Source of the DNA: Tubulanus polymorphus
Taxonomy: Eukaryota > Nemertea > Palaeonemertea > Tubulaniformes > Tubulanidae
Length of the DNA: 64,000 nucleotides
Reading direction: 5' to 3'
Assembly (NCBI RefSeq): GCF_964204645.1
Contig: NC_134028.1
Coordinates: forward strand, 14,621,263 to 14,685,262
In this document: piece after piece, positions 25,911 to 61,544 of the stretch
Layout of the letters: every line of letters starts with the position of its first letter
Numbering within the stretch: position 1 is the first letter of the stretch
The notes under the pieces: model-generated
The model's input: the letters and a program-made list of their open reading frames with translations, nothing else
The model's database searches: none
Told to the model about the DNA's origin: nothing
Position numbers and translations under genes: made by a program

Positions 25911-26056
25911 AGAAAATATCAGCCCAATAAGGGTAAAAAAATATTTTAAAGCGTAAGGTTTCAGCGAACTCTAACTCTTTTTCAATTTTTAACTAATTTT
26001 AATAAAAATTTGATATATAAATGTGCTCAAGATTGATTTAAGTTCCCGCAAAAGAC

Positions 26057-26595
26057 ATGAATAATAAATATATGAATTCAATATTGTATTATTTAACTGT
26101 TAACAATAATTTAGCTGATATTTCAGGAGTAAATATACATAAGTATTATAAATCTGAAAATAATGAATTAATTGAAACGTCAGATATATTTTGCGATAAT
26201 ATAATGCTTTATAAAATCATGTTAGAAAAAGAAATTATTAAAGAAAATAGGCCAACTTTTCTTAATGTTAATCAGAGAAAGATAACCCATTATGAAATAG
26301 AATGTTTTAATCATGGAAATATTATATTGGATAACTTAGCTATAAAAATTACACGTGTTTTAACAATTCATGATGATAATTCAAAATCATATATCTTAAG
26401 TAGAATTAATCAAGAATTAAAATTAACAGATTATAAAGCAGTATTTAAAATTTCATTATGCAATCAAAAAATGGATAATATTGAAAAATTATTGAATGAA
26501 AAAAATTACAATATATTAGATGTAGATGTTACACAAGATTTTAAAGGATCATTTAATTCAGATGAAATAAAATCAATTCCATATTCATTTTATAA
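26057..26595 (+). pseudogene. unidentified Polinton gene, 5' part, fused in frame to the polymerase
   Basis: About 180 codons with no family that I can name. Visible: an N-terminal YYLTVNNNLADI, a middle part ITRVLTIHDDNSKSYILSRI and YKAVFKISLCNQKMDNIEKL, and VDVTQDFKGSFNSDEI near residue 170. The remainder of the open frame (after about 26595) is clearly polymerase, so a deletion seems to have joined an upstream gene to the middle of the polymerase gene. The segment follows the terminal hairpin and subterminal repeats and so was probably the first gene of the element; a replication-initiation role is speculation. Confidence 0.5.
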
Positions 26596-28352
26596 ATCAC
26601 ATAATGTTTTCAATATTACTGAATTATTAAAAGAACAATTCTATGATGAATTAAAAAATGAATATGTTAAAGATGAAGACTATAATAGAACATTGAATAT
26701 TTGGAATCATTTTAAAATAACAAATTGACAATTAGTAGATTTATATTTAAAATCTGATGTATTATTATTAACTGATATATTCGAAAGGTTTAGAGATGTA
26801 AACCTAAAATATTTTAATATTGATCCTTGCCATTGTTATTCATCACCAGGATTAACTTGGGATTGTGGTTTAAAATTTACAGATATAAAAATGTATTTGT
26901 TAACAAATATAGATCAATTATTATTATTTGAAAAATCTATAAGAGGAGGAGTTTCAGGTGTATTAGGGGATAGATATTTCAATGTAAATGATAACCCTGG
27001 ATATAAGTTATTATATATAGATGCAAATAATCTATATGCTTGGGCAATGATGGAACCACAGCCATATGGAGTATTTGAAATAAGTGAAGTTTTACAACAT
27101 GAAAATAATGATAAATTTGATTGGAAGAAAAGAATCCTAGATATTGCAGATGATTCAGAGACTGGTTACTTCTTTGTTGTAGACTTGGAATATCCCGAAG
27201 ATAAAAAATTTAAATCTAGAAATCTAGCATATTGTCCCGAACATAAAACTGTTACGCATGAAGAATTATCAAATTATCAAAAAAGAATTTAACCTGAAAA
27301 TCATATTCATACAGAAAAGTTAATGGTAACTCAGGAAGATAAATATAATTATGTAGTGCATTATAGAATGTTGAAGTTTTATTTGAATCAAGGAATGGTT
27401 CTAAAAAAGTGCATAGATATATTTCATTTAGTCAATCTAAATGGTTAGAAAAATATATAGATTTTAACACCAAACAGAGAACTAAAGCTAAAACTGATTT
27501 TGAGAAAGATTTCTTCAAACTAATGAATAATGCATTCTATGGTAAGACTTGTGAAAATATTAGAAATAGAAATGATATTGAGTAAGTTAGTAATGGTAAA
27601 AGAATTAGACATTTACAAACATATCCTAAGTTCATAGGTAACAGAATATTTGATGATATTTAGCTGCAGTTAAAATGAGGAGAACATCTATGAAATTTAA
27701 TAAACCAATTTATGTTGTAGCTACAGTTTTAGAAATATCGAAGTTATTAATGTATGAATTCTATTATAACGTATTACAACCTCATTTTGGAGAAAAGCAT
27801 ATAGAAATCTTATATTTTGTTACAGATTCTTACATATTAAAGATAAAAACTAATAACATAACAGATGATTTAAAAACATTAAAACATCATTTTGATTTTA
27901 GTAATTATCCTAAAGATCATGAATTGTTTAACAATGATAATAAAAAGGTGCCTGGTAAATTCAAAGATGAATTAGAAGGTGAAGAAATGATAGAATTTAT
28001 AGGTATTCGATCTAAAATGTATTCATATAAAACTAAAACTCATGAATCAAAGAAATTGAAAGGAATAACCAAAAGTGTAGTAGAAAAGAATATTCATTTC
28101 AAAGATTACATCAATTGTTTATTCAATGAAGAAGTTAGAAAACATAAGATGAGATGTTTAAGAACTGAAGATCATGAAATTTTTATTGAAAAGGTAGAGA
28201 AGATAAGTCTAAACCCATTTGATGATAAAAGATATATTTTAGATGATGGTATACACACAGTTAGTTATGGTTGCAATTTAGATGAATACTTAAGATTTAA
28301 AAGAGAAGAAACAAAAGAGAATGAGATAATGAAAAGAATTCTAGCGTGTTAA
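26596..28352 (+). pseudogene. Polinton protein-primed DNA polymerase B (middle and C-terminal part)
   Basis: Family-B polymerase of the protein-primed type that would replicate the element. Seen in order: YLKSDVLLLTDIFERFRDVN (ExoIII-like Y-x3-D, with a stop just before at 26726-26728); a SSPGLTWDCGLKF block; GGVSGVLGDRYF; motif A LYIDANNLYAWAM (27011-27050); in another frame, motif B LMNNAFYGKTCENIRN (27520-27565); then motif C as VTDSYILKIKT (27820-27850), where the usual first residues of YxDTDS are changed. It ends with GIRSKMYSYKTK and GCNLDEYLRFKRE (stop 28350-28352). Stops and shifts lie at 26726, about 27290, about 27410, about 27585 and about 27665. The N-terminal exonuclease half is missing. 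This copy has no intein at motif C, in contrast to block E. Confidence 0.88.
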
Positions 28353-45975: not shown

Positions 45976-46379
45976 CGTAATACCTTATGATGAATATAGT
46001 AAGTATTTTGGAGAATACTTTAATGAATTCAAATATAGAATAAGTAAAATAGATAAATAATAAAAGTGGTGTTGTTGATATTTTAAGTAATGAAATTGAT
46101 AATTATGTTATTCCTTCTACATCTAATAATGTTATACCTTTTACATCTGATAATGTTTTACCTTCTACATATGATAATGAAATTATATTAGATTATAGTG
46201 AAAATAGAAATTATTGTGGTTATTGTAAAGGTGAATTTTCAAACAGTCCATCAAATTGGAATAACCATATGAATACAGCTGTACATATTACTAATGTTAT
46301 AAAACGCGTTGGTTTAAGAGAATTTACAGAACACCCATTTAGATATGTAACAAAGTTTGTTTCAAATAATAAATTGCCC

Positions 46380-48703
46380 ATGGGCAAAGTGTGGTATACC
46401 TTGAAAGCTAGAGGTTGTTTGGAATAAGGGCATTGCTTGAAAAATCTTTTAAATTCGTGACTTCAAAGTTCTAGAAGTTTATATTGTATTTTATCTTTCT
46501 TAAAGAATTATTTTATAGTCAAACAAGACCAAAGATATACATTTGTTTGCGGTCCACGTCCAAAATTTTGTAGGGTACAGGTAGGCGCGGCAGGGAAACT
46601 ATTTTATATTTTCAAAAAAATATGTTTCACAATATGAAAAAATATTCAAATAAGGCCATCCCAAAATAATAGTCTGTTTGCCGTAACACCGACTCAACCT
46701 TTCATGACACTTTTCATGAGTCGGTAGGTAGGTAGAAATTTTATTTTACAAAATTTTTGGGCAACAAAAAAAAATTGCACCTTTGGGCTTTTTTACATGG
46801 AAACAATATCGCAAAAAATCATCTACGTTGTGCGCGGGAAATTTGTCTAATAGCGTAGAGTTCAAGAATTATTCCAAAATTATAACTTCGTCCAGAGTGT
46901 CATCTCTGTGTTAAAAATGAAACAGTACATTGAATATGTGCGCGCTTTTACGTTAAAGTCTATCCCAGTAGTTATGACCGCGGTGCATCAAAGAGTTGTT
47001 ACACTAACATATCAGGATCCCTGTGGTTTTTATCACTCAGCCTTACGAGTAATTGAGGTCAAGCGACTACTGCATTCAAGAGTGAATAATATACCATCAA
47101 CTGGCCATTCATTAAAGGATATAAAATTCCAATTTTTATAATTTTACAAAATCCTTTCTTGGATTTTTAGTTTCATTTTGGGAACAATCATGTCATGTGG
47201 CAAATTCAATCTGATTGATTTTGTACATCTATTAACTCCTCAGAGTGTGAGCATATATAATCTGGAATCATCTCATGAGTCGAGTGGTGTTGTTTTGCTT
47301 GAAACACCATCTAAATATAATCTTTCAACTTGGAAATTGGTTTTAACACTTCATAATGTAAACACTGACTTCAGCATCCAGCGAAAATATTCACTCTTGA
47401 ATGCAACAAGACTTCAAAACTGAATTTTCATTGCTTATTACTTCATTTTCTTGGATTAAGTGTGGAAAAGTTTTGCTCTTTATTCACTCTTGCCTGTAAC
47501 CATAGCAACAAGCAGCTGGGGTCCAGCGAGTCAGCGATGCTCATGGTGAGTTTGACCACTTAAAGCTGTCAGTATCAATTAAATTGTTGTTGATACTGGC
47601 TCTTTGAGAGTGAAATGCCGCGGTCATAACCACTGGGATAGACTTTACCAGCTTTAATATAGTCACTATTAGAATGAATGGCAGCTTATTGGAACGCTGC
47701 CAGTTTCCTAAGCCACATGTCAAGGCATGTTTTCACTTGAATTCAAACATACGTAGCTCATACGTCAAATAGTTTCCACTCGTACCTCTGAAGTCGGGTT
47801 GGTCGGGTTACGGCAAACAGACCATTATTTTGGGATGGCCTAAAATTCATATGATATCACATATCAGAGGGTGGCTGAATATCGGGTCTTGGAAACCTCT
47901 TCCAATGTTGGCCGCGGAAGCCAAAATACCGGTACAGAAGAAACCGGCTATTAGATCGTTTTAAATCCTGGAATTTACCAGTACAATTTTCAGACCTCAT
48001 AGTTTGCTGCTTAGTATTTTCAGGTCACAAGAAATTACAATTTATTACAAATTCTATCTAACAGAAAACACAGCGCTCATCTGCTACGATTATTCAGCCT
48101 ATTTTCATGTCGAACGTGCACGCGTTACAGCATCACCCTTAGTAGTGTACTGTACGAGCTTGTGTGTGTATCGTGTAGCACTCCGTGCGCACGTGGAGGC
48201 CTCGTGTAAGTAAATATTCGCTTACACCTCAATCAAAACAATCACCGGGTATTAAAATGAAACAATACCTATGGCGGATGTGTGAAATAATTACATCCTC
48301 ACCAGCAATGAGCATTTGAAATTAACACGTATACGGCACCTAGTCCAATGAAACGTACGCCATTCTATGGCTTTCCCATGATTATTTTAGTAGCGCCGGA
48401 ATTCCCCGTATATCCAAAAAAACAGCGAATCCCATTCGCTCGTAGAGACGACGCCCCCCAACCGAGCTCATTGCAATTTTATACGCGAGAGCTAAGAATT
48501 TTCCCGCCAAAAACAGTTTTTCGTAGAATTTTAACTCAGTTGACCATGTCATCGACGGAGGTTCGCCATGTCTCGCATCGATTATACGTCGTTTAAGCTG
48601 AGAACTAATGAAACAAATGCACACATAAAAAAACGTACCGCGATTTTACATGAATTGGCTCGATGCCAACATCATATCGCTGACAAAGGTAAACCAAAAA
48701 AGT
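46380..48703 (+). mobile_element. 1.6-kb dispersed repeat, copy 2, carrying a nested MITE
   Basis: Starts with the palindrome TTGCCCATGGGCAA (46380) and ends GGTAAACCAAAAAA at 48703, inside the zinc-finger gene. Homologous to the reverse complement of 3382-4940. Without the 690-bp MITE it is about 1.63 kb. A frame on the minus strand (48624-48382) is shared with copy 1 (plus strand 3457-3666): TWSTELKFYEKLFLAGKFLA followed by LAYK. The conserved piece looks like part of a former exon or promoter region, but no family is recognised. Confidence 0.72.
46956..47645. mobile_element. TA-type MITE nested in the 1.6-kb repeat
   Basis: A 690-bp insertion absent from copy 1 of the surrounding repeat. 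TIRs of 28 bp, AAGTCTATCCCAGTAGTTAT... left and its complement right with one mismatch. Flanked by TA on both sides (46954-46955 and 47646-47647). TA target and short TIRs point to the Tc1/mariner/pogo group. Non-coding. Confidence 0.88.
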
Positions 48704-48842
48704 AAGTGGTAAAGATTTATATGCAGATTTATTAGGCGAATTTTTATCAAAGGAACCTGAACTCAGTAAAGATGAATTAGATTTAACTGATGCTAATAGA
48801 ATATTAGGATCAAACATTGTAATTCAATATTAAGGTCAAACA

Positions 48843-49060
48843 CTAATGAGTAAGAGGATAAGGAAAATATAGTTACTGGAAAGCTTATTGATAATGAAGA
48901 TTATATAGATACAGATTGGATGAAACGGAAAGTAGTGACTATTGATGACCCGGTAGATAGGTTGAATAAAATGTTAGTCCGATGATGAATTGGAGGATGG
49001 TGATGAAAATGATGTTAGTTATTACAAACTCACATAATATATTAGTTGAAAATGAGTAAT
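48843..49060 (+). pseudogene. remnant of an acidic Polinton frame after the zinc-finger gene
   Basis: In two frames: KENIVTGKLIDNEDYIDTDW, MKRKVVTIDDPVDRLNKML, then SDDELEDGDENDVSYYKL. Acidic and AT-rich like neighbouring Polinton genes. It may be the start of the next gene or a spacer-derived frame; no family recognised. Confidence 0.4.
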
Positions 49061-49330
49061 TGTAATATGGCGTTTTCGTACCAGAGCACGAGGCACTAAC
49101 GAGAACGGTCGGCAGCGTTGTGCTATAAGAGTAGTACAGTGATTGCGCAACCAGCCATGCTCGGATAGATCGATGCAGTGAGGCATTGACGAGAACGGTT
49201 GATAGTGTATTTGCTATTTACAGGGGGAAGGTGACCGCGCTCAGATGATCCAGGTTTATTTAATTGTTTAATGAATTAAATTTTTTTTTTGCTTTTTTTA
49301 ATCGCCACAAGTAAATGTTTTCCCTTATAA
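49061..49330. other. non-Polinton insertion between blocks D and E
   Basis: About 270 bases of ordinary composition with two related halves (GAGGCACTAACGAGAACGGT at 49089 and GAGGCATTGACGAGAACGGT at 49181, a direct repeat about 92 bases apart). No coding content. It separates two Polinton copies that both lie in the plus orientation. Confidence 0.55.
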
Positions 49331-49340
49331 ATGGGAGATA

Positions 49341-50268
49341 GTGAGTACCAGACAGAAAACAATAATGTTAATAAAAAATCAATATTATTGTGCATATTGT
49401 AAAAAATTCATCGATAAATCTAATCATGAAAAAACTGCAAATCATATAAAAAATGTTATAGATTTTGAAACTCCAGAAAATTCCAATGAAAGAAAAGGAC
49501 GATTAGAAAATATGAATGTGGATGAAATAAAATGTGAAGTTTGTAACGAATTTGTAACAAAAAGGAATTATAAAAGACATCTCGAATCGCAAAACACAAA
49601 CAAAATTTAAGTAATAATGTTTTAGGAACAGATTATTTTGATGATAAACCTCAACAAGTAAAAAAACCAGTTTTAAAAACTAAATCTATTTCAAATAAAC
49701 CTTATATGGAAAATGTTAGAAATTATATCAATTCACTAGAAATAAAAGATGTAATTGAAATTTTAGAAACATTACGTAGTAAAATTGGTCCTGCAGCTAT
49801 TATATCTAGATTTTTTAAAGGTACCACAATAGAAGATTATAGTAAATTTATTGAAATAATGGAAAAAACAATGGACTTTATTACAGTGAATATCCAAAAA
49901 ATAGTATTTCTGGGAAAGTTAGTTTTATGAAATCAGGAGAAAAATGGATTATAATATTCAAAAACACTCTGAAGAAATAATTTCAAAAACACAAATAAAA
50001 GAGAAGTTAGAAAAAATATTCAATGAATTTAAACGAAAAATTGAAGAAAGATATTTTCAGGGTTCTGGCTTATCATTAAATGAAATTATATTTTTAGATT
50101 TAAATGTTTATAATACAAAAAGGAATAAAGCATCAAAAAGTAAAACAATGTTTAAAAATGATACAAACTTTACAACAGAAAAGGATATTAAAGCATCATC
50201 TTATATTAAATTACCAGTTACAACAAAAGCAGTAATAAATGTTAAAAAATAGGATAATAAATGTTTTC
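49341..50268 (+). pseudogene. Polinton DNA polymerase B, N-terminal region with zinc fingers (block E)
   Basis: Frames 49341-49610, 49610-49930 and 49944-50250 read as one broken coding stretch. First come two CxxC-H-H fingers (YYCAYCKKFIDKSNHEKTAN...H, then CEVCNEFVTKRNYKRHLESQ). Next is VRNYINSLEIKDVIEILETL. Then comes a block typical of the start of Polinton polymerases, ERYFQGSGLSLNEIIFLDLN and YNTKR, SSYIKLP and, after a stop at 50250-50252, the DNKCFLWSI motif (50253-50280). Right after that motif the sequence jumps to the intein, so the exonuclease and palm motifs up to motif C are deleted. Whether the zinc fingers belong to the polymerase or to a separate small gene is uncertain. Confidence 0.65.
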
Positions 50269-50280
50269 TATGGTCAATTA

Positions 50281-51201
50281 TTAGTTGTGGATGGAAAAAA
50301 TAAAAAGAATATTACTAGGCATAAAAGAAATAAGAAAATCTATAGAGTTAGAACTAAATTAGGGTTTGTAGATGTTACAGAAGATCATAGTTTAATTAAA
50401 CGAAATGGTGATGAAATAAAACCAACTGATGTAAAAATTAGAGATGAATTATTACACAAAAGATTTTTCCAAAGAATGGATCATATGTCATTTGATGAAA
50501 TAATTGATAATATTTATAATATGGAACCCAAAACATTAGAAGAAAAAGAATATTTTATTAAAGGATTTTTTATGGGTGATGGTTCAGCAGGTGTGTATAA
50601 TTATGTTAGTTGCAATAAATATTGTGGGTATTTATGTAATCAAGATTTGAAATTATTAGAAAGAATTAAGAAATATTGTGAAAAAGTTTACCCAAATAAA
50701 ACATTTAGAATCGTGGATATTATGAAATCATCAGCAGTTTATAGAATATACATGTATGTAAATAATCCAAAAGATTTTGCAATGAAATATAATGATGAAT
50801 TCTATATTCCTGCAATAGTTAAAAGTAATACTTCAACAAAAGAAAAGATAGTGCCAGATTGTGTATTAAATGCAAAATATAATTTAAGAAAATGGTTCTT
50901 CATTGGATTCTATGCCGCAGATGGTGCTAAAGATTTACGAGTTCTCCAGTAATAACATTTGCACAAAAAGGAAAAGTTGCTATATCAGGATTAAATATAT
51001 TATGCAATTCATTAGGTTTTAATGTGAATATTGCATTGATTAAGTCTAAACCAAATTGTTTCAATCTAAAGGCATGTAGAAAAAGAATTAACAGATGAAG
51101 TTAAAGATTTATTTGAAATATATAACCCAACAGATTATGTTTATGATTTATCAACTGAAGGTGGAACATTTAACTGTGGATTTCCATTAATTTTTCTCAA
51201 T
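50281..51201 (+). pseudogene. LAGLIDADG intein in the Polinton polymerase
   Basis: Protein-splicing element with an embedded homing endonuclease. Seen: the Hint block-B region RHKRNKKIYRVRT then FVDVTEDHSLIKRNGDEI (50365-50420); the first dodecapeptide YFIKGFFMGDGSAGVY (50550-50600); the second, WFFIGFYAADGAKDL (50894-50938). A frameshift near 50940 leads to SPVITFAQKGKVAISGLNIL, and another near 51075 to the block-F end TDYVYDLSTEGGTFNCG. The last residue is Asn (51199-51201) preceded by Leu where inteins normally have His. The next residue is Thr of TDAYILKIKT, the polymerase motif C. The N-terminal Cys block is lost in the deletion that also removed polymerase palm motifs. So this copy is dead, but the intein identity rests on five collinear motifs at a classical intein site (YGD/TDS). 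Confidence 0.85.
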
Positions 51202-51655
51202 ACGGATGCATACATACTAAAAATCAAGACAAATGACATAAAAAAAGACTTAAAAACATTAAAACATCATTTTGACTTTAGCAATTATCCAAAAGATCAT
51301 GAACTATTTAGCAATGATAATACAAAGCAGCCTGGTAAGTTTAAAGATGAACTGGGGGGTGATGAAATGATTGAATTTGTTGGGATAAGAAGTAAAATGT
51401 ATAGTTATAGAACAAAAGATCATGAAGCTAAAAAGTTAAAAGGAATAACAAAGCATGTGGTTGATAAACATATACAATGATATAAAGTGTTTATATAACT
51501 CAATTGTAATGAAACATAAAACGAATTGTTTAAGATCAGAAGATCACGAGATGTATATTAATGAAGTTGAAAAAAACTAGCTTAAATCCATTCGACGATA
51601 AAAGATATATTTTGGGTGATGGAATAAAAACATTACCTTATGGCCATTTAAAAAG
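51202..51655 (+). pseudogene. Polinton DNA polymerase B, C-terminal part (C-extein side)
   Basis: Starts at motif C as TDAYILKIKTNDI and continues collinearly with 27826-28300 of block C: LKTLKHHFDFSNYPKDHELF, KFKDELGGDEMIEFVGIRSK, YRTKDHEAKKLKGITK, stop at 51478-51480. Then in shifted frames KHKTNCLRSEDHEMYINEVE and SLNPFDDKRYILGDGIKTLP. The catalytic TDS reads TDA here, so one catalytic-motif residue is altered. Thumb region present; the last about 20 codons are missing. Confidence 0.82.
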
Positions 51656-51659
51656 AAAA

Positions 51660-52866
51660 TCAATATCATCATACTCGAAATCACTATTCTTCATTTTCAT
51701 TTAATTGTTTAGGTTCCTTCATTTCATTTTTCTCATTTAAATAAAGTTCTATATTATTCCACATTTCATCTAGCTCTCTTTGTTTCTTTTTGTTCGTTAA
51801 TTCATCTAATGGAATTATAATATAATCAATCAAAGGAATCATAATTAATTGAATCTGTTATTTTATTATCCACATGATATTTTAATATGTTTGTGAATGT
51901 TTCTTTTATATTTTTCATATCTTCTTCTGTTAATTTAGGTTTTTTATAATAATCGTTAAATAATAAATATAAATACATTTTCTTTTCTTTTGTGTTAAAT
52001 GTTGATGGAATAATTGTTTTTATTATATCTTTTTTAGTTATTTCCCCATTTTTATTTTCTATCATTTTCATTTTTTTAAGCCATTGCTTATATTCTGGTG
52101 TATGATCTTCCATTATTTTAAAAATTTCATCTAGATATTTTAATTTTGTCTCTATAAGAATATCTCCTAGTTTTTTCATCACCCCATAAATTTTTTTGCC
52201 ATCCACATTCATTACAAAATATCACAGGATCTTCTTGTCTTAAGTACACATAAATACATTGTGGGCATTTCTTGGCAATAGATCTTCATTAAGTTTTTGG
52301 TATTTTCTTACACGTTTTCTTTATGTTTTATTATTTTATTATGTAGATTTGAATTACTTGTTGTAATAATCAATTTACAATATTTGCAATAATATGTTTT
52401 TCTTACTAATTCATTATATTGTTTTTCTAACTGTTCAAGTGTTTCTTCATTATCTGGTAATGTTTTCTCGTATTTCATTTTTTCTAATATATTATTTTTT
52501 CTTTCATTGAATTCTGCTTCAAATTTATTAGAAATTTTATCTATATGTGCTTTACGAAATTGATGATTTTCCCAATCTTCTATTTTTTCAGGGCTATATT
52601 TTATTCGACAAGGCTCACAGAAATGATCTTTTATATTATTCTTGTCATCGAATAAGAAAGGTCTTTTCCAAATAATTTCAGGTTCAGTTTCAACAGAATT
52701 ATTATTACTTTCGTTACCATCAACATTAACCGTTGAGTTATTTATTTTACACTTCTCTGAATGTTTTTTAACATAATTTCTTGAGAATAATTTATTACAA
52801 TTTGGGCAGTTTATTTTAGGGGGTTTATAATTTTTATCATTTTTTTCATATGTCGAGCCATTTTAC
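51660..52866 (-). pseudogene. Polinton multi-zinc-finger protein gene (minus strand)
   Basis: Minus-strand frames read as one protein. Starting at about 52860: an N-terminal C2HC finger CPNCNKLFSRNYVKKHSEKC; an acidic Asn-rich linker; a second finger CEPCRIKYSPEKIEDWENHQ...H; a helical region; a third CKYCKLIITTSNSNLHNKII...H. After a frameshift near 52325 comes a zinc-ribbon-like CPQC...CNECGW, then the frame 52212-51826 (KYLDEIFKIMEDHTPEYKQW, KKMYLYLLFNDYYKKPKLTE), and a shifted acidic tail to about 51660. AT-rich and flanked by Polinton DNA on both sides, so probably an element gene, but its position in the intact element is not known. Its start abuts the truncated capsid-like gene of block F, implying another rearrangement. 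Function unknown; nucleic-acid binding likely. Confidence 0.55.
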
Positions 52867-52884
52867 TTTTTCTTTGAAGTTCAC

Positions 52885-53173
52885 ACACTTTTTTACACAC
52901 TTTTATATTTATTGCAATTTAATTGATCATACAAAAACATTTGAAGCAACTAAAGGTACAATTTGTAATTCTGGTTTATTAACTATTTACCATAAAAAAA
53001 ATGTTAAACAATTCGGTACACAAATCAATTATAATTTAGCTGAGTGCGATCTTAAGCCTTGTATTTCACAATTTAATAATTTCAGATTAGAAGTAAGAAA
53101 TCATAATGGATACTTAATTGATTTAAATAATTTTCCTGTAATTTATGAATTAGTTACAAGATGTAAAGAATAA
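52885..53173 (+). pseudogene. Polinton capsid-like gene, 3' half (block F)
   Basis: Begins abruptly at THFYIYCNLIDHTKTFEATK and runs to the NHNGYLIDLNNFPVIYELVT end with stop 53171-53173. It is homologous to the ends of the genes at 28753-30751 and 41985-42726. The 5' half and the preceding small gene are missing; the break lies near 52885. Confidence 0.7.
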
Positions 53174-53189
53174 TTTTTTCACTATAAAA

Positions 53190-53545
53190 ATGAATATAAC
53201 TGTTGGACCGAGTATATGTTTTGAATTTGATTTTAAACGTGAGAAAGAAATGAAATTTGATATTAATAATGTAGTTACACATATTAGAAATATTGCATTT
53301 TCTAATGAAACAACATTTGATTTTGAAAAAACAATAGATAAAGAAACTTTTAATGTAGAAAAGATTACCGATTTAATTAGAGAGTCTTAAAGATTTTATG
53401 AATTAGATGCAAATTTTATCATCGATGATATTAAAAAATAATAATTGAAATATATACAAATGAAACTAGTAATGAAATAAATGTTGAAATAATTATAACT
53501 AAGTTTACTAAATATTTTGAAGATAGTATTTTTTTTTCTAAAGAA
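53190..53545 (+). pseudogene. Polinton gene of unknown function, block F
   Basis: Best preserved start of the three copies: NITVGPSICFEFDFKREKEM, VVTHIRNIAFSNETTFDFEK, EKITDLIRES, then a single-base loss near 53388 and RFYELDANFIIDDIKK. The acidic C-terminal part is degraded further by a stop at about 53440. Confidence 0.6.
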
Positions 53546-53771
53546 ATGGCGGATCAGACGTGGATAATAACTGGTTTATATAATTGAGCATTATTATCAG
53601 TGGGAAGTGTTGGTTATACGATGGTATTAAAAAAAGTATTTAGAATGGGAAGTATTAATGTTGATAAATTTGATATCAATGATATTTATTTTGTAATTAA
53701 CATTAGCAGTAACTTTATCTAATTTAACAATTGATTATTTGGAAAAACAAAAATATATTCCTCCTATATAA
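53546..53771 (+). pseudogene. Polinton small membrane protein 1, block F
   Basis: ADQTWIITGLYN, TGA, ALLSVGSVGYTMVLKKVFRM, INVDKFDINDI; a short frame shift near 53690 and a LTIDYLEKQKYIPPI end (stop 53769-53771). One clear hydrophobic segment. Confidence 0.6.
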
Positions 53772-53795
53772 ATGCATAATATTTTTACTAAATAA

Positions 53796-54236
53796 ATGGC
53801 ATCTGCAATTATAACTATTATAGGATCGGCAATTGTTAACGCTTTGGCATTTACTGCTGGTGGATATCTATTTAAACATATTGATAAAAATAGTTCAATA
53901 GGAGAACAAAGAAGACATAACTTAGCATTAGATAAATACAATAAAGCTGCAGAAGAATATAGAGAAAAGAGGCAAAATTATATGGATTATATCAATAAAT
54001 AATTATATAATCAGAAAATTACACATAGAGATTTTCAATCAGTTGATGATGCAGTGAGTTTATATCACGCAGTAACAAATAAAGAAAAATTACATCTATA
54101 TAAACCTAAATTATCAGATTATTTTACCCCAAGTAGTGAACAGAAGAAATATGAAATAATTTGGATTTTAGGTGGAACAGTTATTGTATTATTTGTTGCT
54201 TATAAATTTACTAATGGTAATTTCTTTTCTAAATAA
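53796..54236 (+). pseudogene. Polinton small membrane protein 2, block F (one nonsense codon)
   Basis: A 146-codon reading frame interrupted only by TAA at 54000-54002; block D has GAA at this position, so it is a single substitution. Seen: N-terminal membrane helix ASAIITIIGSAIVNALAFTA, the long charged helix YNKAAEEYREKRQNYMDYIN, FQSVDDAVSLYHAVTNKEKL, LYKPKLSDYFTPSSEQKKYE, then the C-terminal membrane helix IIWILGGTVIVLFVAYKF. It shows the uninterrupted target of the TTAA MITE found in block D. Confidence 0.72.
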
Positions 54237-54654
54237 ATACATGATAAAGTTGACAATATTGATATTATCCTCATGATATAAATAAAACTAAATTAAAATT
54301 ATATTTGGAAAATCAAATATCAGAATTTGAAGATGATTTAAAAGTTAAAAAGAAAAAATATTTAAAAAGTAAAATTATATATTATCTTATTATTAGTAGT
54401 TCAGTTACAATTAGTTCTGTAATAACATTTCTAGCATTATTCTCACCATTAACACGTTTAGCTATCTCAATTGGAGCTTTAGGTTTAAGTTCAAGTGTAT
54501 TAACCGGCATAAGTTCAAAATTAAATATAAAAAGAAAAAATAAAATCTGATATAAAAGAAATTAATAAATACATTAGATTATATAATAAGTTTAGATGGT
54601 AATATAATAGTTGAAGAACAAGATAAATTATCACAAGAACTAATTAATTATTAA
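54237..54654 (+). pseudogene. Polinton small membrane protein 3, block F
   Basis: The start codon has decayed (ATACATG where block D has ATGGGC). Open segment 54305-54550: ISEFEDDLKVKKKKYLKSKI, then IIYYLIISSSVTISSVITFL and FSPLTRLAISIGALGLSSSV, two adjacent hydrophobic helices, and a basic end. A shifted LDYIISLDGNIIVEEQDKLS follows to the stop at 54652-54654. Confidence 0.62.
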
Positions 54655-54670
54655 TTTTTTTATTATATAA

Positions 54671-55960
54671 ATGGGGTTTCCAAAAGCTTTCCAATTATAA
54701 TAAATCAATTAAATGTAATATTCTTGCAATAGATTCCAATAAAAATATTACATATAAAAATTTAATTTTAAATTCATTAATTAATTTAGAAATTTATGTT
54801 ACTGAAACGAAGTTTTTTATTTCTAAAATGGAAAATATATTTCATACATATGAAGTCACTTTTACTCGAGAAGAATATCGTATATATAAAGTAAAATCTA
54901 ATATGAAATATATGCAAAATCAATTAAATTTTGCTGTTTATTGTGCAACAACAGGGTGTGGTATAGGTTGGAATGATCATTTAAATAACAAAAATTTGAA
55001 TTATTCTGATTTAAAATTATTTCATACGTATTTTCAAATCAGAACTATATTAAACGAATTTGAATGCCCTTTGCCTGGATCTAATTATACTAAAGAATTG
55101 GATAATAATATTAATCTATCTAAGTTTTATAAAATATGTAATGAATTTAATATAGATATTTATTCCGATTTTAGAGCGCATGGTAAATTTCAAGGTATTG
55201 GTGAACAGTATGAAATAAAAAGAATTGATTATATGCATACAATTGGAGCTTATCATAATTATGAAATTGATAATAATAATGGTTGGATTGATTTCATTTT
55301 AGAAAATAGTGAAGGTTTTACAAAATCAGGTATACAAAGAATAAATCAATCTATAAGAATATATTTAATTTGTATATTAGGTGCACAAGTTGAAACAAGA
55401 TCCCCGATAGTTGGAAATGATAGTACTTCATTTGATACACAGAAACAATTTAAAGTTTTATTTGAAGATTCTATTCATAATGATAAGAATAGATCGATTC
55501 CAGAAAACATTGTAAGATATCAAAATTATTTAGATAAATTACATATTAGATTAAACTATTGTAAAGGCCCTAATTTATTAATTATTTCTAATGATTTAGT
55601 TTTAAAAATGGGAAATATAATTGGTTATAATAATCTAATTAAAACTGCTACAGTCAATAATAAGTTTCGATTAAATGATATAAATAAAAAGATTATTACT
55701 GTTCCAAAACTAATGGAAGGTGAAAAAATTAAAAAACATATTCAGTCAACAGAAACTAAAACTAAAAATATTAAATTGGATAATGATTCTAAAATAAAAA
55801 AAGATTACAATACTACAGAAAATATAAAAACTGATAATATTCAACATGAAATAATTAAAAGTAATAATGATAATAAATCACATGAAAATACTAAATTATC
55901 ATCGATGATATTACTTGTATAGGAATCGTAATAGGAGGAATATTTTATTTTAAATTTTAA
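54671..55960 (+). pseudogene. Polinton virion-type protein of about 400 residues (block F)
   Basis: N-terminal 50 codons (GFPKAFQ..., LINLEIYVTETKFF) contain frameshifts. From 54828 an open frame of 364 codons: HTYEVTFTREEYRIYKVKSN, MKYMQNQLNFAVYCATTGCG, SDLKLFHTYFQIRTILNEFE, LSKFYKICNEFNIDIYSDFR, GFTKSGIQRINQSIRIYLIC, ILGAQVETRSPIVGNDSTSF, SIPENIVRYQNYLDKLHIRL, YCKGPNLLIISNDLVLKMGN. This pattern recurs in Polintons of many invertebrates as I remember it, next to the capsid gene, and is annotated there only as uncharacterised. A Lys/Asn-rich low-complexity tail follows. A frameshift at about 55910 gives the original end, a hydrophobic GIVIGGIFYF anchor. The role is likely structural (virion), not proven. 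Confidence 0.7.
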
Positions 55961-56649
55961 TTGTTGTAATGGGTCCAAAAATCGCATTTTTGCCTACAAA
56001 TGCGGGTGTAACTTAGACACGAAGTCATGCTTGCTACTAACTTAAGATAAGACATAATATAAGACATAACAAACACACATAGATTTATCATTACTGAATC
56101 AAATATATATAATAAATATGTGAGATAAATAAATCTATGATATTTATTACATCTATGTGTGTTTGTTATGTCTTTATTATCTTTAGTACTTTTAGTACTT
56201 TGAGTACATAAAGAATAAATCTTTATTTTATTAGTACTTAGAAAAATAAATATATAAATAATTTTATATATGATAAATCTATGATATTTATCATTATTGA
56301 AACAGTAATATATAATAAATATGCGTGATAAATAGATTTAATTATTGAAACAGTAATATATAAAATCCATCAGATGAATAAATATAATTATTGAAACAGT
56401 AATATGTATATATATTTATGTCTTTATTGTCTTTAGTAGTTTAGTAGTTTTAAAAATAATTTTATTCACTACTAATAAAATAAAGATTTATTCTGTATGT
56501 ACTAAAAGTACTAAGCCTACTAAAGACAATAAAGACACAAGGGGTATTATATTCATATTTTAAATTACTTTTCTGATTCTAATTCTGAAAACAATTTGAG
56601 CCATGCATCTTTCTTGTGATCTTCTTTCACCTAATAGTTTAGTATGATA
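55961..56649. repeat. AT-rich nested palindromes after block F
   Basis: Two nested inverted repeats. The first, about 27 bases, is GACATAACAAACACACATAG (56064) with its complement ending at about 56176. The second, about 85 bases, has a left arm at about 56178-56265 (containing AGTACTTTTAGTACTTTGAG, AATAAATCTTTATTTTATTA) and a right arm at about 56447-56530. Between them ATTGAAACAGTAATATATAA recurs three times (56297, 56344, 56389). No gene. Possibly the decayed right end of the Polinton, since it directly follows its last gene. Confidence 0.6.
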
Positions 56650-57125
56650 ACCAATACTATTCAAACCGCGGGCAATAAAACCAAAATAATGAATTATCGC
56701 GGGCGATAAAACCAGAATATTGAATTGTCGCGGACGACAAAACCAGACTAATGAATTGTCGCGGGCGAAAAAACCAAAAAAAAGAATTGTCGGGGCGACA
56801 AAACCAAAATAATGAATTGTCGCGGGCAATAAAACCAAAATAATGAATTGTCGCGGGTGACAAAACCAAAATGTTGAATTGTCGCGGGTGACAACACCAA
56901 AATATTAAATTGTCGCGGGCGACAAAACCAAAAAAAAATTGTCGCGGGCGACTAAAACAAACTATAAAACCAAAATAATGAATTGTCGCGGGCGACAAAA
57001 CCAAAAAAAAAGTTGTCGCGGGCGACTAAAACAAAATATAAAACCAAAATAATGAATTGTCGCGGGCGACAAAACCAAAAAGAAGAATTGTCGCGGGCGA
57101 CAAAACCAAAATAATGAATTGTCGC
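56650..57125 (-). repeat. 31-bp minisatellite, first array
   Basis: About 15 units of a 31-base consensus GAATTGTCGCGGGCGACAAAACCAAAATAAT, shown here only as its halves GAATTGTCGCGGGCGACAA and AACCAAAATAAT. Each unit has a TTGTCGC-GG-GCGACAA palindrome. Because 31 is not a multiple of 3 and the unit has no stop on the minus strand, all three minus frames stay open and give artefactual Phe/Trp/Arg-rich proteins. The array continues at 58107 after an inserted repeat. Confidence 0.92.
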
Positions 57126-58106
57126 CACAATCGACAATCACCACAATCGTAGTACATGTAATGAAATACAACTTTGCAATTGATCATAGTAACAAAACAT
57201 GCCTAGGTACCAATCTAATAAGGAAATACTAAGCCATTCTACTATTCAGCGCCCCCTGGTGACTATATGGAATAACTAATGTCCTTAAAAACTCACCACA
57301 ATCATAGACGATGTCATGAACTACAACTTTGCAATTGATCATGGTAACAAACTATGCCTAGGTACCAATCTAATAAGGAAAAACTAAGCTTTTCTACTAT
57401 TCAACGCCCCCTGGTGTCTATATGGAATAACTAATGTCCTTAAACACTCACCACAATCATAGAAGATGTCATGAACTACAACTTTGCAATTGATCATGGT
57501 AACAAAATATGCCTATGTACAAATATAATATACCGATACTAATACTAGCGATATAATACCCCCTGATGGCCACATACAAAAACCAATGACCTTGAAACTC
57601 ACCAAAATCATAGAACACGTTATGGGCTACAACTTTCCAATTGAATATAGTAACACAATATGCTTAGGTATCAATTTGATGTAGAAAAACTTTTTCCCAC
57701 CTACGAATGAGTACTGATGACACCAAGATGGCCGCCAATTGCGTCATAATTGGCTGATCAAAATACCTGTCCCAGGTATAAAACATCCCTCTCTAAAAAA
57801 TACCCATCAGCAATTGCAATGAGAAATGGCAAACCAAATTGACATTTTCAAAATTTCCCACGAAAACTTCGAAAATGTTTAAAAAGTGCTGATTTTGGCA
57901 AACAACAATGGCTGCCAGTCGACCATCTTGAATCTGACAGGGCCAGTTTTTGGGCTGACGATGTGTCTAGGGTAGATACATGTATAAACCAAATATCAAG
58001 ACATTACCTTGAAGCGTCTTCAAAACTGGATTCCGTCTATGGATGGACGGACGGACGAAAAGTGAACGCAATAGCCCGCTGGGACTAAAGTCCCAAGTGG
58101 ACTGAT
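57126..58106 (-). mobile_element. second copy of the 1.24-kb repeat, inverted, inside the minisatellite
   Basis: Reverse complement of most of 28901-30142: several about 152-bp units with CGCCCCCTGGTG (57248, 57406), GATGGCCGCCAATTGCGTCA, TGGATGGACGGACGGACG and an AAGTCCCAAGTGGACT end at 58103. Minisatellite units flank both sides, so it inserted into the array. The inner end is truncated relative to the block C copy. Confidence 0.75.
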
Positions 58107-59194
58107 AAAGAATTGTCGTGGGCGACAAAACCAAACTAATGAATTGTCGCGGGTGATAAAACCAAAATATTGAATTGTCACGGGCGACAAAACCAAACTA
58201 ATGAATTGTCGGGGGCGATAAAACCAAACTATGAATTGTTGCGGGCGATAAAACAAAAATATTGAATTGTCGCGGGCGATAAAACAAAAATATTGAATTG
58301 TCGCGGGCGACAAAACCAAAATGTTGAATTGTCGCGGGCGACCAAACCAAAATAATGAATTGTCTCGGGCGACAAAAACAAAATATTGAATTGTCACGTG
58401 CGACAAAACCAAAATAATGAATTGTCGCGGGCGACAAAACCAAAATAATGAATTGTTGCGGGCGATAAAACCAAAATAATGAATTGTCTCGTGCGACAAA
58501 ACCAAAATAATGAATTATCGCCGGCGATAAAACCAAAATATTGAATTATCGCGGGCGATAAAACCAACAAAAAAAATTGTCGCGGGTGACAAAAACAAAA
58601 GATAAAACCAAAATAATGAATTGTTGCGGGCGACAAAACTAAAAAGAAGGATTGTCGCGGGTGACAAAACCAAAATAATGAATTGTCGCTGACGATAAAA
58701 CCAAAATAATGAATTGTCTCGGGCGACAAAAACAAAATATTGAGTTGTCACGTGCGACAAAACCAAAATAATGAATTGTCGCGGGCGACAAAACCAAAAT
58801 AATGAATTGTCGCGGGCGATAAAACCGTAATAATGAATTGTCGCGGGCGATTAAACCAAAATAATGAATTGTCTCGGGCGACAAAACCAAAATAATGAAT
58901 TACTGCGGGCGATAAAACCAAAATATTGAATTGTCACAGGCGATAAAACCAAAATATTGAATTGTCGCGGGCGACAAAACAAAAACAAAAAATTGTCGCG
59001 GGCGACAAAAACAAAATATAAAACCAAAATAATGAATTGTCGCGGGCGACAAAACTAAAAAGAAGGATTGTCGCGGGCGACAAAACCAAAATAATGAATT
59101 GTCGCTGGCGATAAAACCAAAGTAATGAATTGTCGTGGGCGATAAAGTCAAAATATTGAATTTTTCGCGGGCGACAAAATCAAAATCATTGTTT
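58107..59194 (-). repeat. 31-bp minisatellite, second array
   Basis: About 34 further units of the same 31-base repeat as 56650-57125, with common variants GCGGGCGATAAAACC, TCTCGGGCGAC and TCACGTGCGAC, and occasional longer units containing AAACAAAATATAAAACC. Higher-order repetition is visible: the block around 58540-58700 recurs at 58925-59110. Decayed units continue to about 59235. Confidence 0.92.
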
Positions 59195-59394
59195 TCTCGC
59201 GTTATTTTAGTTTTGTCGTTTTGTCGTTATGTCGCCCTCATTTGCATATTCGTCTTATCAGCCACTATACTAAAGCCTTAAGGTCGCGTAAAACTCTTAC
59301 TCGATAAACACTTCAAGCGACACAGCGAACGATCTCCTTTCCTCCACAGCGAACGCTTACTCCGAATGTCAAGTGTGAGTCCAGCATACAGATA

Positions 59395-60280
59395 GGAGTG
59401 TGTTGTATACTTATATTTAGTAAATACGTTGTGCATTTGACAATGATCGGTATGTACTGTAGGAAATATAGAGTATTGATGGTATTGATATAGAGGTTGA
59501 AGCCCGCGGCCGAATAAAGTAATATATTTCTTTATTTTGATACCTCGTCGACATAACAGCTTTTCTCAGCTATATCTCTTCGGCGTGTTTAGTTTAGGCC
59601 TACGACTCCCCGGTACGCGTATGATTTATCTTAGTAAATACACGGTTAATTTGGTAAAGAAAAATAGGTATTGCTAAACTAACTGCATGAAACCCGCAGC
59701 CAAATCACTGGTAGTTATAAATTAATTTGTACTCGATTTGATTCTCATGATGAGGAGAAACTCGCAGCTGATCCCCGGAACGACGATGTAGTAACACACG
59801 TCGAGTCGTCGATGTTTACGGCTCGACAGTGCTTTTAAAATCTAAAGTAGTAAATTTCCAGTGTATCGGTAATATGATTTTATGAGGAAAATGGGCTATT
59901 GTTAAAATCACTGTTTGAAGACCGCGACTGAATGTGATGTCTGCAGCAATAAATTAGTTCATTTATACTTGAATTCATAATCGAAGTGACAGTCGGCCTG
60001 CGGGTTGATTTCGGGATGACGAATCGGAAAAAAACATGTCGCCCCATTGAATGGGGCTAAATTTTCGATGTTTACGGCCCGACAGCGCTTTTGTAACGAT
60101 GATTCGTGAAAAAACACGCGGGCTATTTGTAGATCTCAGTGAGCTGAACGATTTTATATTCAGATTGTATATGAAACAGCGGTAAGGTAACAAAGCCTAT
60201 GTTCTTTTGGTAAAAATGGTGTGGAAGAAAATAATAATAATAAATATAGCTGCAAAGCAGCGATAACGGGTTTTCTGCAC
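59395..60280 (-). repeat. right arm of about 0.86-kb inverted repeat
   Basis: Reverse complement of 40636-41494; ends CGATAACGGGTTTTCTG at about 60280. Two internal units about 256 bases apart share GATGTTTACGGCTCGACAGTGCTTTT (59811, cut) and GATGTTTACGGCCCGACAGC (60067). With the left arm it encloses about 17.9 kb containing Polinton blocks D-F and the minisatellite. Confidence 0.8.
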
Positions 60281-60599: not shown

Positions 60600-61544
60600 G
60601 ATGAGTTAACTCGGAGTTAAATCTTAACTCGGAACTGTGGAACTGGACCCTGGAGATTCAGAAAATGAAGAAGTCATTGGGCCGTATCTATACGAACCGG
60701 AGCCAGATGAGACAAATGAATCCATTGTTCCGTCGAACAATCCCAACAGACTCAATAGGCTGAACCTGGATAATTTACACGAATGGTGGGTTTTATATTT
60801 GCTAATATGTGTTTGTATCTTTATATATAAATGCATTTTTGATAATGCACATTTTATGGTTAAAACAACCAACCCTAATAGAAACTTACCCTGTTTTTTT
60901 TTATCATTGATGCATGCCATGCAATTCAATAACAATAAGACCAAAAATAAATTTTCATAGCATTGTACCGTCGTCGTGTACTGTGTCCGTACTGGGTTGC
61001 TTGTTATTTTCTTGTCAGTAGAAATCTATAAGGTTAGGGCCGAGCTGAACTTATGGACACTTTCTAGAACCCAAGTCTAATTTTCGCAATGATTGTTTTT
61101 ATTTTAAGGTGTTCGTGTACTCACTGCCAGGTGTTGCCCACAGAACCAGAATGTAGCTGTTGCCAGGAGAGTCCAGAGGTCACTCAAAAATTGGCAGAAA
61201 TTTTGGAATTTGAACACCACGAGGCCGTTCCTAAATGCATTACTGACACTAATGCATTTGCCTCTGTTTGTACAGATAGATGGGTGTTGCAGGTAGCCTG
61301 GTTAACATTCAAACAACAATATGGAAATAAAGCGTTTGAAGGACCCATCGAAGAGAAGTGTAGACACATAGCCTATCGACAATTTACCCGATGGTGTTTG
61401 GGATACTGTGGCAGAAAAAATCGTGTTATTTTGCCGTCCTGTGTCGTTTCCTGCATCCGGGCTCATTTTCCTTCTGAAGATGGGGATGAGGATTTGTACA
61501 AAGGTTTCCGATGGCCAGCGTTAGAAGAAGAAAACGAAGACTGA
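60600..61544 (+). CDS. P2X7 C-terminal (ballast-type) cysteine domain protein, transposon-associated
   Basis: Two exons. Exon 1 (about 60606-60786): acidic/Asn-rich VIGPYLYEPEPDETNESIVP and RLNLDNLHEW; its start is not certain. The donor is GAATG^GTGGGT. Exon 2 begins after TATTTTAAG at 61109: CSCTHCQVLPTEPECSCCQE (zinc-binding cysteines), ITDTNAFASVCTDRWVLQVA, RHIAYRQFTRWCLGYCGRKN, RVILPSCVVSCIRAHFPSED, YKGFRWPAL; stop 61542-61544. This is the Cys-rich intracellular domain named after mammalian P2X7, widespread in invertebrates without any channel part. No channel segment is present here. Convergent with the transposase at 62100-64000, so both may belong to one element. GAGTTAACTC repeats just upstream (60562-60632) may be an end of it. 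Confidence 0.68.

Follow-up and report, generated by a model that had tools for sequence, protein, structure and literature searches.

A window of 64,000 nucleotides from the nemertean Tubulanus polymorphus (NCBI contig NC_134028.1, positions 14,621,263 to 14,685,262 of the forward strand) carries, in a broken DNA polymerase of a Polinton-type transposon (block E), what is very probably a dead copy of a pol-c intein, intact predicted versions of which sit at motif C of the polymerase in a high-copy Polinton lineage of the same genome. The same high confidence covers the identity of the insert, its site and the dead state of the window copy. An earlier note on this DNA had proposed that the polymerase of an animal Polinton contains a LAGLIDADG intein at the YGD/TDS site, and this proposal is supported, the intein being of the pol-c type and the genome a nuclear one.

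Intact copies of the insert have the anatomy of a pol-c intein

The genome searched comprised 267.8 Mb in 77 contigs. Wnt exons had 39 matches in it and none in any of 14 control genomes, which marks it as that of an animal. The intein piece of the window yielded 494 candidates and an intein-free polymerase piece (the last frame of block C, a second broken polymerase in the window) 1908, with 150 of each being scored. By hand count, the aligned part was free of stops in 122 of the 150 scored intein matches, and 10 of the 150 lay within frames of 1686–1690 amino acids (aa). From these candidates we fetched 20 long-frame copies with the intein and 20 without it, picked for similarity and long frames. 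The two kinds belong to separate lineages, A (with intein) and B (intein-free), whose members are 97% and 95% identical within their lineage, respectively, and 76% identical in nucleotides between lineages (N-extein). Polymerase and insert were read through in a single frame of 1682–1690 aa in 10 of the 20 fetched intein copies, while 15 of the 20 had 355 open insert codons ending in Asn (the terminal Asn being part of the filter) and constitute the open set analysed below.

The insert spans 355 aa at motif C, reading ILYFD/SVTADTP...PLIQKN/TDSYILK, which places it at YFD/TDS. All 15 open copies retained Ser1, the Thr and His of the block B motif TxxH (TEDH in 13, TGDH in 2), both LAGLIDADG Asp residues, the block F sequence YVYDLST and Thr+1, and 271 of the 355 positions were invariant among them. 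In line with the profile match anticipated by the earlier note, an intact copy scored above the cut-offs of intein_Nterm (TIGR01445; 33.5 bits, cut-off 24.5) and LAGLIDADG_3 (PF14528; 32.7 bits, cut-off 22.5), and below that of Intein_splicing (PF14890; 30.7 bits, cut-off 35.8). The best solved relative of the intact intein was PI-PkoII (E 4.5e-6), and no Hint/Hog family appeared among its Pfam matches at E 0.01.

Two features speak against reading this insert as a splicing intein: the usual block F His is absent (block F reading DGTFN), and the penultimate residue was Lys or Val and never His (QKN in 11, AKN in 2, AVN in 1 and KKN in 1 of the 15 open copies). A protein search revealed 275 relatives, of which 120 were listed and, after six with odd intein spans had been dropped, 114 were delimited by an Asn before T, S or C, a procedure that favours a terminal Asn. 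Position 1 was Ser in 111 of these 114, the last two residues were KN in 55, HN in 36, FN in 7, VN in 5, SN in 4 and LN in 2, and the intein was preceded by YGD in 102 and followed by TDS in 96. Intact copies, which the earlier note had expected to show Cys1 and HN-T ends, do exist in this genome, with Ser1 and mostly KN-T ends instead.

It is very improbable that the insert belongs to the normal polymerase protein or represents a spliceosomal intron. The insert is indeed in frame in the long copies, but exact patterns counted over the genome revealed 499 empty sites next to 265 intein N-junctions and 226 lineage A C-junctions (backward-pattern controls being zero for each count), and frames of the fetched intein-free copies measured 1324–1360 aa in 18 of 20 (1353–1360 aa in 17), the other two being 1256 and 1297 aa long. 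Moreover, the splicing blocks are conserved, and the insert ends are TCT...AAT, unlike the GT-AG ends of introns. A fixed polymerase domain, which the earlier note had named as the finding that would speak against it, was therefore rejected together with an intron on the grounds of empty sites, conserved splicing blocks and non-GT-AG ends.

Some variation was observed at the C-terminal splice junction. Four of the 20 long-frame copies (L022, L023, L024 and L027) had lost one A from an A-run in the last intein codons, which shifts the frame at the junction; the run may be a hot spot of slippage, or the frameshift might be a programmed one. Intein codons 353–354 differed by several bases at once (CAAAAA, GCCAAA, GCAGTC and GCGGCC among L012–L031, TTTCTC in the window) beside codons 350, 351 and 355, which were fixed in the 15 open copies.

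The relic in the window

The window copy in block E was compared with the intact genome copy L014 by blastn. On the forward strand, a polymerase N-terminal remnant in a broken frame (49301–50287; matching the first 324 or so codons of intact copies, 88.8% nucleotide identity to L014 103–1103) abuts a second blastn block at a deletion junction between 50287 and 50288, with L014 1104–3836 having no counterpart in the compared stretch. This second block (87% nucleotide identity to L014 over 50288–52300) begins with an intein remnant at 50288–51201, corresponding to residues 53 (approximately) to 355 and ending in FNCGFPLIFLN. Directly after the insertion point in motif C follows the start of the C-extein, TDAYILKIKT (51202–51480), which is of the lineage A type found in the flanks of the fetched intein copies. 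A single deletion of about 2.7 kb has thereby taken most of the N-terminal part of the polymerase and the first 52 or so intein residues from the window copy. The remainder of the intein is split over three forward frames (50239–50952, 50931–51098 and 51070–51480) by two frame changes, with TEDH as block B, the terminal Asn at 51199–51201 and Thr+1 at 51202. The motifs quoted in the earlier note were all recovered in these three frames, and its placement of the terminal Asn and Thr+1 was correct.

Taken alone, the first frame of the relic matched the profiles intein_Nterm (E 0.021) and LAGLIDADG_3 (E 0.003) as well as PI-PkoII, a PolB intein (E 0.0008); these matches are weak and fall under curated cut-offs where such exist. 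The matches of the window intein piece in the genome were the window copy itself at 100% and, for the others listed, 81–89% identity, and the window match is therefore not due to chance.

Judged from its sequence, the window copy is a dead remnant of a mobile pol-c intein that has lost its N-terminal splicing half and can no longer act, because of the deletion and the frame changes. This agrees with the earlier note, which had called the copy dead and counted two frameshifts, while some of the lesions it listed have to be revised. The N-terminal block is deleted, as it stated, but the residue lost with it would be Ser rather than Cys, given its prevalence in the relatives. The Leu in the penultimate position, read there as a His-to-Leu lesion, proves nothing because Lys and not His is the commonest penultimate residue among the 114 relatives, and the supposed TDS-to-TDA lesion does not count as a mark of death either, since 9 of the 15 open copies have TDA after their intein.

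Selection on the intein

The ratio of nonsynonymous to synonymous substitution rates (dN/dS) was determined for the 105 pairs among the 15 open copies, using the last 500 codons as N-extein and 150 codons as C-extein. It amounted to 0.251 for the intein, 0.154 for the N-extein and 0.149 for the C-extein, and within the intein to 0.201 for residues 1–100, 0.308 for residues 101–300 and 0.125 for residues 301–355 (98 pairs). These ratios show purifying selection, under which both splicing halves and the endonuclease were constrained while the copies multiplied, although the choice of open frames pulls dN/dS down somewhat.

Relatives and horizontal spread

Among the 120 listed of the 275 intein relatives, the hosts were mostly family B polymerases of PF00136, the majority of which were assumed to come from giant viruses, and in some cases GyrB proteins. 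One listed protein of the same wide family, P0105, comes from the alga Chloropicon primus and is a DNA polymerase delta listed with intein domain PF14890. A careful intein tree was built from 56 hand-picked rows (17 of 98 new proteins having been dropped). In this tree, the Polinton-type inteins (8 of the 56 rows) lay on one side of a branch with support 100/100, and the inteins of Mimivirus, an Asgard archaeon and GyrB on the other; being unrooted, the tree does not give the direction of transfer. The same Polinton grouping received a value of 99 in the Shimodaira–Hasegawa-like approximate likelihood ratio test (SH-aLRT) on a 118-row quick tree, from which four of the eight own copies were left out. 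The position of P0017 as sister group in that quick tree was rejected, as it did not hold in the careful tree. As to the grouping with giant-virus or other polymerase inteins that the earlier note raised, the Polinton inteins form a clade of their own with Mimivirus outside it.

Polymerase trees were made from the 28 best of 118 new proteins together with our own copies and known carriers, the 41-row tree being a quick one with some long branches. An intein was present in only four of the 120 listed nearest polymerases, two of these being cut off by the sequence end, and the three nearest polymerases (70–71% identity) had no intein and grouped with lineage B. On the 41-row tree, intein presence requires at least five changes. 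Specifically, P0002 carries the intein and P0133 and P0135 do not, at 92–94% identity of their N-exteins and 88% of their C-exteins, and a truncated intein start was found in P0134 and P0167 (the latter outside the 41-row tree). The intein of P0003 is 48% identical to that of lineage A while its polymerase is only 21–27% identical, corresponding to differences of 0.52 and 0.78 and to an intein/extein distance ratio of 0.31 (0.23–0.41); this ratio was 0.85–1.37 in ten pairs without P0003, with 0.85 (0.66–1.11) for lineage A versus P0001. Because of this patchy presence on the polymerase tree, and because the P0003 intein is far closer than its extein, these comparisons indicate that the intein spread horizontally, including into a very different polymerase. 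Of the spread within virus-like transposons proposed in the earlier note, the part between elements is supported by trees and by presence and absence, and homing inside this animal would be a further step, weighed below.

Viral contigs scanned with the window piece gave three distant loci only, one of which (L011) resembles a PolB of phage type that carries a short intein of another kind; scans of viral contigs with P0001, P0009 and P0003 gave no relatives, and phage records gave only weak matches (best E 1e-6). Contamination by a giant virus, or a single endogenous viral insertion, is extremely improbable and was rejected. The predominance of PF00136-kind family B polymerases among the relatives, Mimivirus included, would suit it, but most listed copies lie on chromosome-size contigs (C1–C12), several of them with Wnt exons as well, and the polymerase that carries the insert is of the Polinton type. 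On the large contigs C1–C4, filled and empty copies were situated mostly mid-contig, e.g. at 12.5–22.4 of 32 Mb on C1 (first 100 places per list). Among the related proteins, P0126 is a Polinton-type polymerase filed in UniRef under the bacterium Sulfurimonas, which is probably eukaryotic contamination of a bacterial assembly.

Silent diversity at the insertion site

Silent diversity was scanned along the whole gene in 20 copies of lineage B and 14 of lineage A. In both lineages, the eight codons that surround the insertion point (–5 to +2) had the highest value, namely 0.460 in B (mean 0.078; rank 1 of 1328 windows) and 0.459 in A (mean 0.046; rank 1 of 1295 windows). Silent diversity dropped with distance within 110 codons, with 23 of 5000 circular shifts as extreme in B and 7 of 5000 in A. 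This wider slope is weaker, since 205 (B) and 262 (A) of 5000 shifts were as extreme once the nearest 8 codons were removed. Moreover, the same silent variants occurred in A and B at 15 of 83 same-residue codons up to 50 codons from the site versus 10 of 767 beyond (Fisher 3e-10), and fixed codon differences between A and B were fewer near the site (9.6% versus 20.5%, p 0.019; 22 of 849 circular shifts).

Across 67 empty sites taken by position and not by similarity, the C-side haplotypes were ACTGACAGT (26), ACAGATTCT (22), ACCGACAGT (12), ACCGATTCT (5) and ACCGATAGT (2), with the adjoining codons being almost fixed. In lineage B, the serine codon was random with respect to the tree of a distant part of the gene (6 changes, a number no higher in 85 of 200 shuffles). 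The amino-acid entropy at motif C was not raised among 104 related polymerases, and the signal at the site is therefore silent and not one at the protein level. In intein-free relatives such as P0136, P0137 and P0168, the Thr of motif C is often replaced by Cys (DCDS, 35 of 95), and DTDA or DTDG occurs in some.

These patterns would be fitted best by double-strand breaks that recur at the site and are mended with short stretches of other copies, although this is not proven, and we lean slightly towards intein homing inside this animal. The precursor would splice itself and restore the polymerase, the endonuclease of the intein would cut the intein-free motif C, and repair of the break from an intein copy would carry the intein and short flanking tracts across. 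Such repair tracts would explain both the silent-diversity peak and the variants shared by A and B at the site. Taken together, the peak and the shared variants are consistent with homing-driven gene conversion or with target evasion, without being proof of either. In its full form, which we put forward as a tentative proposal, this would be a natural gene drive on transposons in an animal germ line, in which the endonuclease cuts intein-free Polinton polymerases and the lineages swap and silently recode motif C.

A number of observations weigh against homing. The 8-codon window was picked after a look at per-codon values, and when its length was set to 6, 10 or 12 codons, at fixed offsets, the site ranked 2–4 in B and 2–6 in A. 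The clustering of shared variants is of modest strength when judged by circular shifts, 25 of 849 being as extreme, and the fetched copies were selected ones (20 of 494 and 20 of 1908 candidates). Codons –5 to –2 of lineage B keep some linkage to the distant-part tree (0 to 32 of 200 shuffles). Codons 60–148 away also change often, chiefly at polymerase motif B, and lineage B has a second silent-diversity peak there, at codons –108 to –97 (FEKDFFKLMNNA in L032–L051); another known PolB intein site, pol-b, lies in this region. Furthermore, lineage A flanks were found in all 26 distinct fetched intein copies, with no case of homing from A to B seen, and four exact matches to an A-type empty site may represent either A copies that lack the intein or ones that carry it with an altered final codon.

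Alternatively, the ancestor of lineage A may have acquired a real, splicing intein a single time, which has since multiplied only by transposition, without homing in this animal, the peak being due to ordinary recombination at conserved motifs. We regard such a history as possible but doubtful. It would agree with the exclusive A flanks, with the raised diversity and recombination away from the site, and with the finding that the 150 scored lineage B matches cross the site without an insert (a sample biased by the fact that uninterrupted copies score best). It accords less well with the insertion site being the top 8-codon window in both lineages, with the clustering of shared silent variants there, with purifying selection on the endonuclease (0.31), and with related elements differing in intein presence at 92–94% N-extein identity.

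Another, rather unlikely, alternative is target evasion with little conversion, in which the endonuclease cuts, silent recoding of ILYF-D-TDS is favoured and old alleles are kept by frequency-dependent selection. The 67 empty sites do vary silently at T (ACT 26, ACA 22, ACC 19) and S (AGT 40, TCT 27), and the varying T, D and S codons adjoin near-fixed ones. However, D–1 at the centre barely varies (GAT in 66 of 67), and raised diversity and sharing extend over 40–50 codons, past the length of a homing site, which is at most about 40 bp.

The intein-free polymerase and other features of the window

On the forward strand, block C (26042–28352) is an intein-free broken polymerase of lineage B with frames 26042–26728, 26729–27292 and 27657–28352. 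Its empty insertion site, with codons GTT ACA GAT TCT (V TDS), lies at 27819–27830, the insertion point being between 27821 and 27822. The uninterrupted site reported in the earlier note is thus present, but in a sister lineage and not in the same element minus its insert. Block C reads VTDS at this site; its Asp-to-Val change looks like a lesion in the sequence, because all 20 fetched intein-free copies read DTDS. DNA_pol_B_2 (PF03175) matched block C above its cut-off (E 4.1e-7 on 26729–27289) and is also listed for the relatives P0001 and P0002, and it was absent from the Pfam matches (E 0.01) of the L014 and L041 frames.

An A32-type packaging ATPase, a hallmark of Polintons, lies at 972–1580 on the forward strand (PF04665, E 2.3e-10, 40.8 bits versus a cut-off of 22.8). 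No capsid or integrase family matched among nine open reading frames tested around blocks C and E, and the three inverted-repeat pairs found in 46000–60000 are all local, none flanking the element. At 61068–61544, the window contains a P2X7 C-terminal-like domain (PF20478, E 1.7e-12), a domain often spread with transposons in invertebrates.

Discussion

Among the closest known systems, the intein-bearing polymerase P0001 (on a JGI contig of 12,969 bases) shares the same site, with an intein 63% identical and a polymerase 57–61% identical to those described here, and differs in that its site reads YGD/...ISN/TDS. In animals, the Hog (Hint) domain of Hedgehog proteins has a fold related to that of inteins. 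Its self-processing chemistry is similar, as an excerpt of PMC5784728 sets out; the Polinton intein differs from it in being followed by a C-extein and in lacking any Hint/Hog Pfam match at E 0.01. The Mimivirus PolB intein, described in part of PMC549080 as a pol-c allele at YGD/TDS, resembles the present one in its site, Ser1, terminal Asn, Thr+1 and LAGLIDADG endonuclease, and its entry among the relatives, P0315, ends in KN. It belongs to another polymerase family and host type and lies outside the Polinton clade, P0315 being 37% identical to the P0002 intein.

A paper from 2024 (PMC11071308) notes, with reference to Jeong et al. 2023, that a variety of homing endonuclease domains occur in the polymerases of Polintons (pPolBs), and suggests intein invasions. 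Those insertions share with ours their location within Polinton polymerases, while being diverse domains at different positions, and the passages on them are silent about site, residues, copy number and dynamics. Fungal nuclear and algal inteins (PMC5784728, in excerpt) likewise reside in eukaryotic genomes, often at highly conserved sites, whereas the words 'transposon' and 'Polinton' occur 0 times in the main text of that survey. Elsewhere, in the portions relevant here, GIY-YIG and HNH genes are noted in polinton-like viruses (PMC12220804), HNH appears in a figure legend (PMC10120064), endonuclease warfare between giant viruses is proposed (PMC5871332), and inteins are treated only generally or in giant viruses (PMC5718144, PMC3671162). 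Our literature search, judged by listings and with most subscription papers outside its coverage, found no other paper on inteins in animal Polintons. The novelty lies in the host, the scale and the site signature, and not in a new kind of element.

The same 2018 survey (PMC5784728) reports, in the part that concerns us, that inteins are absent from metazoan genomes, an absence that is a motive for developing intein inhibitors into antimicrobials. This view is changed by the hundreds of copies in one animal, of which at least 10 lie in whole frames, with the intein under purifying selection. The Polinton intein clade links animal transposons with an intein pool shared by giant viruses, and with hundreds of filled and hundreds of empty homing sites in one genome, tests of intein homing, co-conversion and target evasion become feasible in a nucleus. 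Should the proposed gene drive be true, silent change in the gene would be fastest at the homing site, whether or not a copy carries the intein, and carriage of the intein would be a weapon between Polinton lineages.
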